This document shows positions 28,004-35,005 of a stretch of DNA of 64,000 nucleotides, one piece after another (positions within the stretch are counted from its first letter, which is position 1; the number at the start of each line of letters is the position of its first letter). Below the pieces are notes generated by a model. The model was not told the DNA's origin, did not search any database, and saw only the letters and a program-made list of their open reading frames with translations. Made by a program: the position numbers and the translations under genes. The stretch is from Polaribacter marinus (lineage in GTDB: Bacteria > Bacteroidota > Bacteroidia > Flavobacteriales > Flavobacteriaceae), in assembly GCF_022662535.1 (NCBI RefSeq), contig NZ_JAKQYM010000001.1:310001-374000 (forward strand), written 5' to 3'.

Positions 28004-28585
28004 TTAAGATTTCTTAATAATCTCTGCTAATAACTTTCTTGCTCGTAAAAGTTTTACTTTTACGTTGTTCATTGGTTCCTTAATTTGTTCTGAAATTTCT
28101 TTGTAAGATAATTCTTGAAAATAACGTAACTGAATAACTTCTTGATATTTAGGTTTTAATTGTTTTATATCTTTTAACAATTTTGCTAAATTTTGTTCTC
28201 TAATAATTTTGTCTTCTGGAGTGGGACTTTCATCAATTACTAGGTATACTTTTTCTTCTTGTTCTTTAGTAGTTTCTATAGAAATAGAAATATTTTTTTT
28301 TCGTAATAAATCAATATGAACATTTTTAGAAATGGTAATTAACCAAGTTTTAAAAACAAATTTTTCATCAAAAGTATTTATTTTATCGAATGCTTTAGAG
28401 AATGTTTGTATGGTAATATCCTCTGCATCATTTTCACTTTTGGTTCTTTTTAATTGATAGTTAAAAACGTCTGCCCAATAAGTATCTAATAAAAACCGAA
28501 AAGCAGATTGATTACCAGTTTTAGCTTTAGATATATTAATTTCTAGTTTTTTATTCTTTATTTCCAATGATTGGGTTTTGACCAT
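28004..28585 (-). CDS. ECF-type RNA polymerase sigma factor (first of two)
   Basis: Sigma-70 family protein of 193 aa with region 2 (about 25-95: LLDTYWADVFNYQLKRTKSENDAED as two segments, then FKTWLITISKNVHIDLLRKK) and region 4 (about 135-190: LKPKYQEVIQLRYFQELSYKEIS, then VKVKLLRARKLL). Its start lies 28 bases inside the end of the glycosyltransferase gene, so the two are probably translationally coupled. No anti-sigma gene is adjacent, which is unusual for ECF factors. The operon runs: small Cys-rich membrane protein, glycosyltransferase, this sigma factor, Nramp-like transporter. Confidence 0.93.
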   Translation of the reverse strand: MVKTQSLEIKNKKLEINISKAKTGNQSAFRFLLDTYWADVFNYQLKRTKSENDAEDITIQTFSKAFDKINTFDEKFVFKTWLITISKNVHIDLLRKKNISISIETTKEQEEKVYLVIDESPTPEDKIIREQNLAKLLKDIKQLKPKYQEVIQLRYFQELSYKEISEQIKEPMNNVKVKLLRARKLLAEIIKKS

Positions 28586-30733: not shown

Positions 30734-30769
30734 AAACCAGATAACTTTATTGTTTATCTGGTTTTTTTG
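30734..30769 (+). terminator. terminator of aqpZ
   Basis: AACCAGATAA and TTATCTGGTT pair and are followed by T7. Confidence 0.9.
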
Positions 30770-30797
30770 TATGTTTACTTTTTGATAAAAAAATCCA

Positions 30798-31376
30798 TTG
30801 AACGAAGAAAATTTTATTATAGAATTACAATTGGGCAAACAAAGTGCTTTTAGTCAGCTTTTAGATGATTATCAACAAAAAGTGTTTGCCACCTGTATTT
30901 CTTTTATTCCTAATAAAGAAGATGCAGAAGATGTTGCACAAGAAGTTTTTTTAGAGGTATTTAAGTCAATACACAAGTTTAAAGGAGATGCTAAATTATC
31001 TACGTGGATTTATAAAATTGCGACCAATAAATGTTTAGAATTTATTAGAAAAAAAAACACCAAAAAAAGATTTGCTTTTATGCAAACTATCTTAGGAAAT
31101 GAAATTCCTTTTGACAAAACAAATTATTTTACAGAAGTAAATCACCCAGGAATTTTATTAGAGAATAAAGAAAAATCAGCAATAATTTTTAAAGCAATTA
31201 ACACTTTGCCAGAAAGCCAAAGAGTTATTTTTACTTTGGCTAAAATCGATGGAAAGAGTTATCAAGAAATTGTAGAAATTACAGGAAAAAGTTTATCATC
31301 AGTAGAGTCTATAATGTTTAGAGCAAAGAAAAAATTACAAGAGAAATTAGAAAATTTTTATAAATCTAATAATTAA
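30798..31376 (+). CDS. ECF-type RNA polymerase sigma factor (second), head of an envelope gene cluster
   Basis: Sigma-70 family protein of 192 aa with region 2 (about 10-85: DDYQQKVFATCISFIPNKEDAEDVAQEVF in parts, then STWIYKIATNKCLEFIRKK) and region 4 (about 130-190: TLPESQRVIFTLAKIDGKSY, SSVESIMFRAKKKLQ). It must start at the TTG at 30798, because an in-frame stop lies 12 bases upstream and no other start precedes region 2. The next gene encodes a one-helix protein likely to be its anti-sigma factor, and a shared promoter-like element follows the stop directly. The cluster it heads extends to about 36.2 kb. Confidence 0.94.
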   Translation: MNEENFIIELQLGKQSAFSQLLDDYQQKVFATCISFIPNKEDAEDVAQEVFLEVFKSIHKFKGDAKLSTWIYKIATNKCLEFIRKKNTKKRFAFMQTILGNEIPFDKTNYFTEVNHPGILLENKEKSAIIFKAINTLPESQRVIFTLAKIDGKSYQEIVEITGKSLSSVESIMFRAKKKLQEKLENFYKSNN

Positions 31377-31406
31377 CGCAAGTTTTTAAAAGTATTGGCA
31401 TCTAAA
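31377..31406 (+). promoter_or_regulatory. candidate ECF promoter P1
   Basis: Starts right after the sigma stop codon. It contains CGCAAGTTT at 31377-31385 and CATCTAAA at 31399-31406, 34 bases before the ATG at 31440. It matches P2 at 32317-32346 in 25 of 30 positions with identical spacing. This also shows that the TTG at 31395, inside the element, is not the start of the next gene. Confidence 0.55.
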
Positions 31407-31439
31407 GACTTAGGGAATTATTTTGTAAACGAAATAAAA

Positions 31440-31754
31440 ATGGAGAATAAAAAAATAAATCAAAAAGTAGAAAATACCTTTAAGGTATTAGATGCTATAG
31501 AGAAGGTAGAGGTAGACCATTTTTTTAAGCATAAAGTTTTGCAAAAACTAAATGCAGAAAAAGAAGTAAAGAAAGTAGTTTTTTCATGGTTTACTCCTCA
31601 ATTACAGTTGGTAACACTATGTGTTGTTTTATTACTAAATGTTAGCGCCATTTTTTATGCATTTTCTTCATCAGAAACAACGGTTAGTTCAGATATAGAA
31701 ATATTTGCGGAAGAATACTCTTTACAATCTAGCAGTAGTTCAATTTTAAATTAA
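31440..31754 (+). CDS. single-helix membrane protein, likely anti-sigma factor
   Basis: A 104-aa protein starting at ATG 31440. It has a cytoplasmic N-terminal part (about 1-57) rich in Lys and Glu with helix-forming segments (VENTFKVLDAIEKVEVDHFF), one membrane helix (about 60-82: LQLVTLCVVLLLNVSAIFYAF), and a short Ser-rich external tail. Its position directly after an ECF sigma gene, and a sigma-facing N-terminus with a single helix, are typical for anti-sigma factors. It has no recognised zinc motif, so the role is an inference. The Spy-like gene follows 5 bases later. Confidence 0.72.
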   Translation: MENKKINQKVENTFKVLDAIEKVEVDHFFKHKVLQKLNAEKEVKKVVFSWFTPQLQLVTLCVVLLLNVSAIFYAFSSSETTVSSDIEIFAEEYSLQSSSSSILN

Positions 31755-31759
31755 AAGTT

Positions 31760-32245
31760 ATGAAATCAAAATTACTTCCAATTTTATTAGTCTTATTAAT
31801 TTTTTTAAATGCAGTTTTAATTTTTATGTTGCTGACTAAGCCTCATGAAAAACCACAACATCGTCAAGAAGGAAATTTTTTAATAGAGAGATTACAATTT
31901 AATGATGATCAAAAAGAGCAATTTAGGGAGTTAGACAAAACTCATAGAGAATTTATGATGAATTTTGAAAATCAAATTAGAAAAAATAAAGATGTTTTAT
32001 TTAATTCTTTTTCTAAAGAAAATTTTAATTCAGATTCAATTATAAGTACCATTAGCGTTTTACAGGCTAAAAAAGATACAGAGCTGTATAGATTCTTTAG
32101 TAAGGTAAGAAAAATATGTACAAAAAAACAGGTAAAAGTATTTGATGATATCATTAATGAAGCTCTTAAAGGGAGTGAAAGACCTCCAGTTAATGAAAGA
32201 GGTCCTAGGCTAAGAAACGAAGGGATGCCACCTCCACCTAGATAA
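31760..32245 (+). CDS. Spy/CpxP-like periplasmic sensor or chaperone, membrane-anchored
   Basis: A 161-aa protein with an N-terminal signal anchor (about 4-25) and a helical periplasmic part (about 38-140) with a Spy/LTxxQ-like pattern (RLQFNDDQKEQFRELDK, FSKVRKICTKKQVKVFDDI). It ends in a Pro/Arg-rich tail (ERGPRLRNEGMPPPPR). Such proteins near ECF systems bind unfolded proteins or metals and tune the anti-sigma factor; here that is inferred. It is cotranscribed with the anti-sigma candidate and followed by a terminator. Confidence 0.78.
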   Translation: MKSKLLPILLVLLIFLNAVLIFMLLTKPHEKPQHRQEGNFLIERLQFNDDQKEQFRELDKTHREFMMNFENQIRKNKDVLFNSFSKENFNSDSIISTISVLQAKKDTELYRFFSKVRKICTKKQVKVFDDIINEALKGSERPPVNERGPRLRNEGMPPPPR

Positions 32246-32263
32246 TATTTATCATGTTTTTAT

Positions 32264-32297
32264 AAACCCTATTTCAATCAAGAAATAGGGTTTTTTG
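32264..32297 (+). terminator. terminator after the Spy-like gene
   Basis: AAACCCTATTTC and GAAATAGGGTTT form a perfect stem followed by T6. It isolates the next unit, which has its own element P2. Confidence 0.9.
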
Positions 32298-32316
32298 TTA
32301 AAGTAAAGTTAACGTG

Positions 32317-32346
32317 CGCAAGTTTATAAAAATGCTAGCATCTAAA
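32317..32346 (+). promoter_or_regulatory. candidate ECF promoter P2
   Basis: Contains CGCAAGTTT at 32317-32325 and CATCTAAA at 32339-32346, 27 bases before the EF-hand ATG. Spacing between the two blocks equals that in P1 at 31377-31406. It stands after a terminator, as expected for an independent promoter. Confidence 0.6.
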
Positions 32347-32373
32347 TTTATATAAACAAAAACATATAAAAAA

Positions 32374-32667
32374 ATGAAAAAATTAACAAACAAAATTTTA
32401 GCAGTACTAGCATTAGGTTTATTCGTTTCAACATCATCATTTGCCCAAAAAGAAGGAAATGGAAAAAGACCAGAAGGACCACCATCAATAAAACAAATCC
32501 TTAAAGATTTAGATACAGATAAAGATGGAAAAATTTCTTTAAAAGAAGCTAAAGGTCCATTAAAAAAAGATTTTAAAAAAATAGATACAAATAACGATGG
32601 TTTTATTTCTAAAAAAGAGATTAAAAATGCTCCTAAACCCGAAAAAAGAGAAAGACCTAGAAATTAA
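32374..32667 (+). CDS. exported EF-hand protein
   Basis: A 97-aa secreted protein with a signal peptide (about 1-24, ending SSFAQ) and two EF-hand loops. The first, DTDKDGKISLKE at about 47-58, is canonical; the second, DTNNDGFISKKE at about 73-84, also is. They should bind calcium. The rest is rich in Lys, Pro and Arg. It is the first gene after P2, and the CotH-like gene follows 31 bases later, so the two are likely cotranscribed. Confidence 0.9.
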   Translation: MKKLTNKILAVLALGLFVSTSSFAQKEGNGKRPEGPPSIKQILKDLDTDKDGKISLKEAKGPLKKDFKKIDTNNDGFISKKEIKNAPKPEKRERPRN

Positions 32668-32698: not shown

Positions 32699-34129
32699 AT
32701 GAAGAATTTTAAAACCATTCTATTTTCAACACTTATAGTATTTACTTTATATTCTTGCGCAACCGATGAAATCGCCGATGTTGTAGAAGAATTAGAAGAT
32801 CAAAATGTAATTATTGATGATACAGAATTTACTGCCACAGATTGGACAGTTGATACTCATAGTAAAGATGCGGATCCAAATTTTGAAGAGGTATTCAAGG
32901 ATAATACCGTAAAAAGATTAGACCTTGTTGTAACATCAGAAAGATGGCAAACAATGTTAAACAATATGGAAAGCCTTTATGGAACATTCGGCGGAACTTC
33001 AGGAGGCCCAGGAGGTCCTGGAACAGGAGGTGCAACAACAGAAGTAGATGAAAACCCAATTTTTGTTCCTGCAGAAGTGTTTTATCAGAATAAAGAATGG
33101 TACCGTGTTGGTATTCGTTTTAAAGGAAATTCAAGTTTACAATCTAGTTGGCAAGCAGGAATTTTAAAATTATCTTTTAAATTAGATTTTGATGAATTTG
33201 AAGATGATTATCCGCAAATAAAAAATCAACGTTTTTATGGATTTAAAAAATTAAGTCTTAAAAATAATTACGATGATAAATCGATGTTAAGAGAAAAAGT
33301 GGCTACAGATGTTTTTAGAAATGCTGGATTAGCAGCTTCACATACTGCTTTTTATACAGTATATGTAGATCATGGAAATGGGCCCGAATATTTTGGGGTA
33401 TATACATTAGTTGAAGAAGTTGATGATACTGTTATAGATACTCAATTTTCTGATGATGATGGAAATTTATACAAGCCCGATGGAGATGCAGCCTCTTTTG
33501 CAAGTGGAACTTATAATGAAGATGAGTATGTAAAGAAAACCAATGAAGATGAAGCAGACTTTTCTGATGTGTCTGATTTATATTCAATACTACATAATGC
33601 AACAAGAACTACAGATCCTGCAACTTGGAGAACAAACTTAGAGGCGGTTTTTGATACAGATGTATTTTTAAAATATTTAGCAGTAAATACAGTTGTTCAA
33701 AATTGGGATACATACGGAAGAATGACGCATAATTATTTTTTATATAACAATCCGGATACCAGTAAATTAACGTGGATTCCTTGGGATAATAATGAAGCAT
33801 TGCAAACAGGGAAAATGGGAGGTTCTTTACCTTTAGATTTTTCGGGATTAAATGCCACACAATGGCCAATAATAGGTTATTTATATCAGGATGAAGAATA
33901 CAAAGCAAAATATGATACATACGTACAAGAAGTAATAGATGATGCTTTTAATGAAACTACAATATAAGCATTATATACAAATTATGCGGCATTAATAGAA
34001 TCTTATGCAACATCAGAAATTCCGGGATATTCATTTTTAAATAATAGTTCAGAATTTCAATCAGCAGTAAGCCAATTAAAAAGTCATGTTGCGGCAAGAA
34101 AAGTAGCTGTAGAAGATTATTTAGATTAA
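32699..34129 (+). pseudogene. CotH kinase-like lipoprotein interrupted by an in-frame stop
   Basis: The reading frame runs from the ATG at 32699 to a TAA at 33965-33967 (422 codons) and then continues without a shift for another 53 codons to a second TAA at 34127-34129. The second part (ALYTNYAALIESYATSE) looks like the normal C-terminus of CotH-family proteins, so the first stop is probably a nonsense change or a sequencing error. The signal ends LYSCATDE (lipobox Cys about 19). CotH-like kinase features are upstream of the stop: VGIRFKGNSSL, FKKLSLKNNYDDKSMLREK, YFGVYTLVEEVD and WIPWDNNEAL near 360. A truncated protein might therefore still be active. A Gly/Pro-rich insert is at about 98-117. 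Confidence 0.85.
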
Positions 34130-34182: not shown

Positions 34183-34211
34183 TGCGATTTTTTTTAATAA
34201 AGCCATCTAAA
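34183..34211 (+). promoter_or_regulatory. weaker candidate ECF promoter P3
   Basis: TTGCGATTTTTTTTAAT followed by CATCTAAA at 34204-34211, 29 bases before the YHYH ATG. The downstream block is the same as in P1 and P2; the upstream block is only partly conserved and shifted by about one base. Confidence 0.35.
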
Positions 34212-34240: not shown

Positions 34241-35005
34241 ATGAAAAATCAATTTATAAAAACATTAAGCATTTTAGCTATTTTATTTACTGTAATAATA
34301 GCATGTAGCTCATCATCAGATATTGAAGAAGAGTTAGAAGAAACAACAGGGACTTTACACAATGCTTTTGCAGATTTTGACACAGCAGAAACAGACATAT
34401 ATTTGCAGGGATCTAATGTAGTTATAGAAACAACAGGAAACCCAAATCATACAACACCATATTGGGGTTCAGGACATGCAAAATATGTAGCACCAACCGT
34501 AACATCAGAAGCAGAAATGACACCAAGTTTAATTCCGGGGTATGATGCAGCTGCAAGTTTAACGGTGTCTCAACATCCTAGTTTGGCAAGTAGTACTACA
34601 AACACATCTTTAGGAGCTATTGGGATTGCTGTAAGTGGAGCAGCTATTTTTAATGACCAAGAAGGAAACGGAGCTTTAGATCAAGCAGCAGGAAGTTTAG
34701 ATTATACAGGAGGTCATATTGGACCGCAAGAATATCATTATCATTTAGAACCAAGAGCTTGGACAAATGATGATGAAAATTTGGTAGGTATAATTTCTGA
34801 TGGATTTTTTATCTACGGAAGAAAATGTAATTCAACAGGAACTTACCCTACGGACTTAGATGCTTCTGGAGGACATACAAGTACTACACAGCACACAGAT
34901 TCTGCAGAATATCATTATCATATTATTAATGATTTATATTCAACGACAGGGAGTTATATTGTTTTTGCAGGACCATATAAAGGAACACCCAATGCAATTA
35001 ATTAA
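34241..35005 (+). CDS. YHYH-domain lipoprotein
   Basis: A 254-aa lipoprotein (signal ends VIIACSSSSD, Cys about 22) with the YHYH domain, named for its repeated motif, seen here as QEYHYHLEP at about 165-173 and AEYHYHIIN near 225. The domain also carries LVGIISDGFFIYGRKC. The function of the family is not established; the histidines suggest metal or proton chemistry at the surface. It shares 14 bases with the next gene, so translation is likely coupled. It belongs to the ECF-linked cluster. Confidence 0.9.
   Translation: MKNQFIKTLSILAILFTVIIACSSSSDIEEELEETTGTLHNAFADFDTAETDIYLQGSNVVIETTGNPNHTTPYWGSGHAKYVAPTVTSEAEMTPSLIPGYDAAASLTVSQHPSLASSTTNTSLGAIGIAVSGAAIFNDQEGNGALDQAAGSLDYTGGHIGPQEYHYHLEPRAWTNDDENLVGIISDGFFIYGRKCNSTGTYPTDLDASGGHTSTTQHTDSAEYHYHIINDLYSTTGSYIVFAGPYKGTPNAIN

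Follow-up and report, generated by a model that had tools for sequence, protein, structure and literature searches.

Two promoter-like elements behind an ECF sigma factor gene of Polaribacter marinus as probable promoters of putative anti-sigma, sensor and effector genes

We found two nearly identical 30-bp elements behind an ECF sigma factor gene in the window (the whole stretch of Polaribacter marinus DNA that was analysed, 64,000 nucleotides), and conclude, with a probability of nearly 0.9, that they are -35/-10 promoters of that adjacent sigma factor; one would drive genes for a putative anti-sigma factor and a putative sensor and the other EF-hand and CotH-kinase genes, in a loop whose feedback would be negative only. 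The motif, its spacing, orientation, position and conservation, and its co-occurrence with the sigma gene, were seen directly. The first-pass annotation had read the elements as an ECF factor's own promoters, and the fixed spacer, the orientation, the position and the co-occurrence with the adjacent sigma gene argue for that reading at the level of sequence.

Results

The two elements and their matches in the same genome

Element 1 (31377-31406, forward strand) stands directly 3' of the sigma stop codon and 5' of the anti-sigma gene, with a -35-like box GCAAGTTT (31378-31385), a 13-nt spacer and a -10-like box CATCTAAA (31399-31406); element 2 (32317-32346, forward strand) stands 5' of the EF-hand and CotH genes and carries the same two boxes, again 13 nt apart, at 32318-32325 and 32339-32346. 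A repeat search returned exactly two copies, 30 nt long, identical at 25 of 30 positions and 940 nt apart from start to start, in agreement with the likeness and common spacing described in the first-pass annotation; the likeness ends at the 30-nt boundary. That annotation had also counted 34 and 27 bases to the start codons, of which the second figure stands (element 2 to the ATG of the EF-hand gene, 32346 to 32374) and the first is corrected to 33 (element 1 to the ATG of the anti-sigma gene, 31406 to 31440). A terminator-like intrinsic hairpin (32264-32293, forward strand), the probable end of the first transcript, finishes 23 nt 5' of element 2, which had indeed been placed just after a terminator. 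When the 2-kb region was simulated 100 times with a first-order Markov model, the closest pair of 30-mers agreed at 21-24 positions and never at 25; taken alone, the 25/30 pair is modestly unlikely to be a product of chance, and the deciding evidence for the elements is genome-wide and comparative rather than the likeness of the pair.

A motif scan of the 3.39-Mb genome, a check proposed along with the first reading, gave two exact matches to GCAAGTTT-N13-CATCTAAA, and these are elements 1 and 2. There were in addition two one-mismatch sites (L003 and L004) and nine two-mismatch sites; at up to three mismatches the scan was mostly noise (123 matches, versus 92 for the reversed pattern). L003 lies 31 nt 5' of the ATG of a second CotH-kinase gene (CotH 2e-46, Pfam). 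Sigma-70-type promoters showed no excess in a scan of the region (19 found versus 23.1 expected). Beyond what the first-pass annotation contained, element 1 would serve the anti-sigma gene, the sigma gene itself here lacks such a site, the third gene appears CnrX-like, and the distant CotH gene also has a site.

The other one-mismatch site, L004 (C46:154912, minus strand, CGTCTAAA), was considered as a regulon member driving a small RNA and was dropped, because a copy of the RNA in G131, a genome without the sigma factor, follows a similar GTAAG..GTCT box; the L004 promoter probably belongs to another sigma factor. The RNA-like element (C46:154830-154940 in the same genome, minus strand) consists of a 5' hairpin, a core CTTTTTCATAGCAATTTTCCC and a terminator. 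It was located at 1501-1529 of L004 and in L185, with copies in L186-L214, and occurs in all 36 same-genus genomes searched, with 1 to 14 matches in each (E up to 0.01). Among 34 copies, a TAnnTTTG box precedes 17, an ECF-like G[TC]AAG..[CG]GTCT box precedes 10, and 7 are preceded by neither, with none preceded by both. Identity with Flavo-1 was rejected: in L190, the Flavo-1 match (2238-2320) and the RNA copy (1534-1552) are separated by about 0.7 kb. The RNA copies in L185 and L190 reached no Rfam gathering score. Such a multicopy small RNA, as yet without a name and preceded by two classes of promoter, would be worth a study of its own.

Conservation of the motif in related sigma loci

The set of relatives comprised the best 80 of 148 sigma-encoding loci (827,512 bases). 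Within these best 80 of 148 loci we found 241 sense matches with up to two mismatches (98 exact, 108 with one and 35 with two), as compared to a single antisense match and none for the reversed pattern on the sense strand; by spacer length, there were 3, 3, 241, 9 and 8 matches at 11, 12, 13, 14 and 15 nt, respectively. Their consensus, again from the best 80 of 148, is C[G/A]CAAGTTT-N13-CATCTAAA. A site lies 3' of the sigma stop codon in 79 of the best 80 of 148 loci, the exception (L059) being cut by a contig end, and in 62 of the 80 it begins 1 nt past the stop. The median distance from site end to start codon is 10-33 nt by gene class in the best 80 of 148 loci; for EF-hand, YHYH and CotH genes the medians are 26-33 nt. 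Selection at two mismatches biases box identities, leaving only the spacer identities informative; the mean pairwise spacer identity was 39% in 133 downstream sites and 60% in 79 post-sigma sites of the best 80 of 148 loci, a divergence from which it follows that mainly the boxes have been kept. Two boxes at a fixed spacing and at a proper distance from genes would be predicted of ECF-type promoters, and this is the pattern found.

The sigma gene and its upstream region

The ECF sigma factor gene (30798-31376, forward strand) begins with TTG and encodes 192 aa, in which only regions 2 and 4 are found (Sigma70_r2 at 22-87, 4e-17; Sigma70_r4_2 at 130-180, 9e-16; both above cut-off), as in ECF factors (group 4 sigma-70) generally, whose length is about 190 aa; its best sequence relatives in the PDB are sigma-E, sigma-H and SigW factors. 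TTG occupies the aligned start in 67 of 78 sigma relatives from the best 80 of 148 loci, the remaining 11 being mostly loci whose match begins after residue 1, and one could envision that this conserved weak start keeps sigma levels low.

In the 400 nt 5' of the sigma gene, the best match to the promoter motif has 4 mismatches and lies inside an aquaporin gene. Among relatives, a sigma-upstream site is present in 29 of the best 80 of 148 loci (19 exact, 8 with one mismatch and 2 with two), and in the other 51 of these 80 the best upstream match has 4 to 7 mismatches, the best for the reversed pattern being 5; because the gene caller accepted only ATG starts, it failed to link 27 of the 29 upstream sites with the sigma gene, which starts with TTG. 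The upstream site occurs in none of the 22 rows of the window's clade (mostly Polaribacter) in the sigma tree. On that tree, of 81 sigma proteins and with bootstrap values that are not fully settled, the upstream-site label changes 6 times, of which at least 3 changes are forced by well supported branches. Positive autoregulation, usual in ECF sigma factors but not obligatory, thus appears to be absent from the window's locus. The near-universal presence of the promoter on the anti-sigma side, set against its presence on the sigma side in 29 of the best 80 of 148 loci, suggests that negative feedback has been kept and that positive feedback is optional.

A different candidate promoter element, GTATGTTTACTTTTT (30769-30783, forward strand), perhaps of a housekeeping type, lies 5' of the sigma gene and is conserved in the clade: with up to two mismatches it is found 23-31 nt 5' of the sigma start in 15 of 21 clade loci, with an exact copy in the window, and in 0 of the 59 loci outside the clade among the best 80 of 148. 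It would read as a TAnnTTTG-like box, and it may be a promoter standing in for autoregulation.

The anti-sigma candidate and the CnrX-like protein

We regard the 104-aa product of the next gene (31440-31754, forward strand) as a putative anti-sigma factor from its position and from its two short N-terminal helices and one long membrane-type helix, modelled at 3-18, 29-40 and 53-92 (pLDDT 70, pTM 0.29). Relatives of it are found in 78 of the best 80 of 148 loci. It has no match in Pfam or NCBIfam, and among PDB sequences it matches neither CnrY nor any other anti-sigma factor.

The following gene (31760-32245, forward strand) encodes a membrane-anchored CnrX/Spy-like protein of 161 aa, a putative periplasmic sensor, so designated from a weak Metal_resist match (PF13801, E 5e-4, below its cut-off) and from a fold match. 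Its AlphaFold2 model, built with 49 sequences, has a pLDDT of 85 and a first helix at 5-26. The eight best structural matches in the PDB are all CnrX (Z 10.9-12.2, e.g., 101 of 106 residues); Salmonella VirG-like, Spy, NccX, CpxP and ZraP come next, and unrelated helical proteins appear from Z 8.7-9 downward. In helical bundles such Z values can reflect a common arrangement and are not proof. Foldseek likewise gave CnrX a probability of 1.00 at E 0.02-0.08, with no match at E 0.001, and CnrX is absent from the 16 PDB sequence matches of the protein, the best of which is Spy (6e-4). At the level of the fold, the model thus predicts a helical hairpin of the CnrX/Spy/CpxP type. The metal ligands of CnrX, in part as given in PDB titles, are a His pair, E63, H119 and M123. 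They are not evidently kept in the window's sensor, whose conserved H62 and M66 lie elsewhere as judged by range offset rather than by residue-level superposition.

Downstream genes and the predicted regulon

Behind element 2, all on the forward strand, are genes for a secreted two-EF-hand protein of 97 aa (32374-32667; EF-hand_1 3e-12), a CotH-kinase lipoprotein (32699-33967; CotH 3e-65) and a YHYH-domain lipoprotein (34241-35005; YHYH 3e-12); MORN and SCO1 proteins were also found by domain search of the neighbourhood. The CotH-kinase frame has a TAA at 33965-33967 and is then open to 34129; this could mean truncation or decay of the gene, or an error in sequencing at that base. A possible degenerate third site, GCGATTTT-N12-CATCTAAA, lies 5' of the YHYH gene (34184-34211, forward strand) and is weak when taken alone, with a 12-nt spacer and two mismatches in its -35 box.

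As classified with the ATG-only caller, the gene 3' of the 241 sites in the best 80 of 148 loci encodes the anti-sigma protein in 76 cases, an EF-hand protein in 63, a YHYH protein in 40, a CotH protein in 15, the sigma factor in 2 and the sensor in 1, with 20 unclassified and 24 sites followed by none. In sigma-encoding genomes there are, L004 apart, 19 sites away from the sigma locus, of which 11 lie 16-170 nt 5' of an ATG gene, another 6 overlap with long open frames, one (L175) seems coding by eye and one (L174) is ambiguous; the seven in coding frames (6 long, 1 by eye) are probably due to chance. Eight of the 11 products were searched against Pfam and 7 had a match: sulfatase (L166), MauG-type peroxidase (L169), LVIVD (L170), PAP2 (L172), YHYH (L180), MbnP (L182) and CotH (L184, in the same genome as the window); the eighth, a small Cys protein (L176), had no Pfam match. 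By eye, L165 is like L166 (in another genus), L177 is CotH-like and L173 is of the TonB type.

SCO1 (present in 34 of the best 80 of 148 loci), MbnP (at one site) and the MauG-type peroxidase (at one site by Pfam and in two loci by blastp) hinted at a copper theme, which was not retained: because sulfatase, PAP2, LVIVD and VTC genes also lie 3' of sites, no single theme emerges for the regulon. The proteins with a VTC domain (polyphosphate polymerase type) are encoded 3' of sites in two Algibacter loci, L088 (7336-8082) and L097, near EF-hand genes, with Pfam run on L088 only.

Co-occurrence of sites and sigma factor across genomes

In a sample of the family, the sigma factor (E up to 1e-50) is encoded in 25 of 199 genomes, and exact sites (CATCTAAA or CGTCTAAA) are found in 19 of 199, with 40 matches versus 1 for the control. 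Such sites are present in 18 of 25 sigma genomes versus 1 of 174 others in the family (Fisher p 5e-19), and in a sample of the genus (58 genomes) exact RCAAGTTT sites are present in 18 of 18 sigma genomes versus 2 of 40 others (p 4e-13), p values that ignore relatedness among genomes that are not independent and so overstate the certainty. The lone sigma-less family genome with an exact site (G113) has one site, which overlaps a 349-codon open frame. The sigma-less genus genomes with exact sites are G227 (two sites, 950 nt apart) and G277 (one site); the G227 assembly is 53% complete, and the sigma gene may be missing from it.

Allowing up to one mismatch, the family's sigma genomes contain 92 sites in 25 of 25 (reversed control 8), and 40 sigma-less genomes chosen of 174 contain 12 sites in 8 of 40 (control 10). 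At one mismatch in the genus, 45 of 58 genomes have a match, so that presence alone no longer separates the two groups; the counts still do, at 103 sites versus 44 control matches in the 18 sigma genomes and 44 versus 47 in the 40 sigma-less ones.

Among 295 genomes of the class, an anti-sigma profile matched in 11, all but one of which lie outside the family. Nine distant loci with anti-sigma relatives (families f17, f26, f36, f50 and f60) have a sigma-like ORF in 8 cases and a sensor-like ORF in 8, and contain six sense matches to CAAGTTT-N13-C[AGT]TCTAA, with none for the same pair of boxes at spacers of 9-12 or 14-18 nt or in antisense. With up to two mismatches, 7 of these nine have a site either where the sigma and anti-sigma genes meet or immediately 5' of the latter; in L221 and L223 there is none at either place at that threshold. 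In other families, some relatives carry CGTCTAA variants (L216, L219 and L223).

Discussion

Taken together, these observations can be arranged in a simple regulatory scheme, for which we infer recognition of the elements by the adjacent sigma factor, the anti-sigma and sensor roles, release by a signal, and feedback. The adjacent ECF sigma factor (30798-31376) would recognise elements 1 and 2, transcribing the anti-sigma and CnrX/Spy-like sensor genes from element 1 as far as the hairpin at 32264-32293, and the EF-hand and CotH genes, perhaps together with genes beyond, from element 2; the second CotH gene, at a distant chromosomal position, would be driven by a third site. At rest, the sigma factor would be held by the anti-sigma factor until released by a signal in the periplasm, which the CnrX-like protein would probably sense; the freed sigma factor would then make the effectors and more of its own inhibitor, a negative feedback through element 1. 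Transcription of the sigma gene itself would in the window's clade probably be basal and from another promoter, and because this gene has no promoter of its own type in the clade, the loop would be negative only.

The principal alternative is that a different sigma factor uses the elements and that the adjacent one is incidental. A candidate is at hand in the other ECF sigma gene (28004-28585, minus strand), since the two ECF genes are within 2.3 kb of each other here, ECF regulons can overlap, and a related [CG]GTCT box is found in G131, a genome without a sigma factor of the adjacent type. However, 56 of 58 genus genomes carry this other ECF gene, and exact sites follow instead the second sigma gene (18 of 18 versus 2 of 40), which is found in 18 of the 58 and in all 18 lies within about 3.3 kb of the first; moreover, a site is tied to the end of the second sigma gene in 79 of the best 80 of 148 loci. 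We thus consider use by another sigma factor improbable.

Still less probable, in our judgement, is that a DNA-binding regulator, such as a repeat-binding activator, uses the elements as operators and that they are not promoter boxes. Conserved boxes paired at a fixed spacing can also form an operator, but the strict orientation (241 sense matches versus 1 antisense in the best 80 of 148 loci), the ECF -35/-10 shape of the boxes and their median position 26-33 nt before EF-hand, YHYH and CotH starts argue against it, as does the observation that the two boxes are, by eye, not inverted repeats of each other; among the genes mapped near sites, which were seed-like ORFs, there is no regulator other than the sigma and anti-sigma factors. 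That the likeness of the elements reflects chance or a duplicated repeat has in its favor their AT-rich composition and the closeness of the simulated best pairs (21-24 of 30) to 25, yet the similarity stops at the element edge, the spacers of relatives average only 39% (downstream sites) and 60% (post-sigma sites) pairwise identity (best 80 of 148 loci), and the site is kept in 79 of those 80 loci and in other families, so we give this explanation almost no credence. The reading that we prefer is accordingly that of promoters of the adjacent sigma factor.

ECF sigma factors with promoters of their own are a known kind of system, and among the listed titles and abstracts of open-licence papers we found no description of this promoter class, arrangement or regulon. 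The closest solved relatives of the adjacent sigma factor are of the RpoE/SigW type (sigma-E factor 1or7, 3e-26), CnrH being only a middling relative (3e-9). RpoE/SigW-type -35/-10 boxes have the same general shape as the window's elements; the window's clade differs in that its sigma gene lacks a promoter of its own type. Classical ECF features, as listed in a review, include AAC at -35, CGT at -10 and positive autoregulation (PMC8103513), and the window's boxes (GCAAGTTT at -35, CATCTAAA at -10, consensus CAAGTTT) depart from the classical AAC and CGT. In the same bacterial family, a study of Flavobacterium psychrophilum describes SM6, an ECF-type promoter class obtained by 5'-end sequencing, with a CGT -10 box, whose genes include one sigma/anti-sigma pair and several type IX secretion genes, and remarks that more ECF-controlled starts may await discovery (PMC9723704); SM6 and, probably, the motif described here are ECF-type promoter classes.

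In its arrangement, the window's system looks like a Bacteroidota analogue of CnrY-CnrX-CnrH, as judged from the models. Like CnrYXH/CnrCBA of Cupriavidus metallidurans, it has an ECF sigma factor (the counterpart of CnrH), a small membrane anti-sigma candidate with two short N-terminal helices (in our model), a protein anchored in the membrane and modelled closest to CnrX, and a pair of ECF-type promoters that precede the anti-sigma gene and the effector genes, respectively. The cnr system responds to Ni/Co, and its CnrY is a class II anti-sigma factor. In the literature on cnr, CnrY is reported to consist of two helices wrapping CnrH (PMC7406223), and it is reported that non-RpoD promoters precede cnrY and cnrC, with starts 24 and 25 nt upstream, alongside an RpoD-dependent basal promoter (PMC9045368). 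The two systems differ in gene order, which is sigma-antisigma-sensor in the window, with the sigma gene outside the first transcript, as compared to Y-X-H in cnr, and in their effectors, which are EF-hand, CotH and YHYH proteins in the window and a transenvelope efflux pump in cnr.

The motif provides an exact handle on the regulon and predicts genes, transcript starts and a sensor. It would tie CotH, EF-hand and YHYH proteins, for which we know of no joint role in Bacteroidota, to one signal pathway, and would offer a natural case in which negative feedback through an anti-sigma factor has been fixed and positive feedback has come and gone. We suggest, tentatively and with rather more doubt than confidence, a wider picture in which a CnrX-like Bacteroidota signalling system with its own promoter class and optional positive autoregulation controls a secreted EF-hand/CotH-kinase/YHYH/SCO1 module, joined in some genera by MbnP, MauG-type peroxidase and sulfatase genes. 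Such a module, if true, would point to the handling of a metal (copper or calcium) at the cell envelope.
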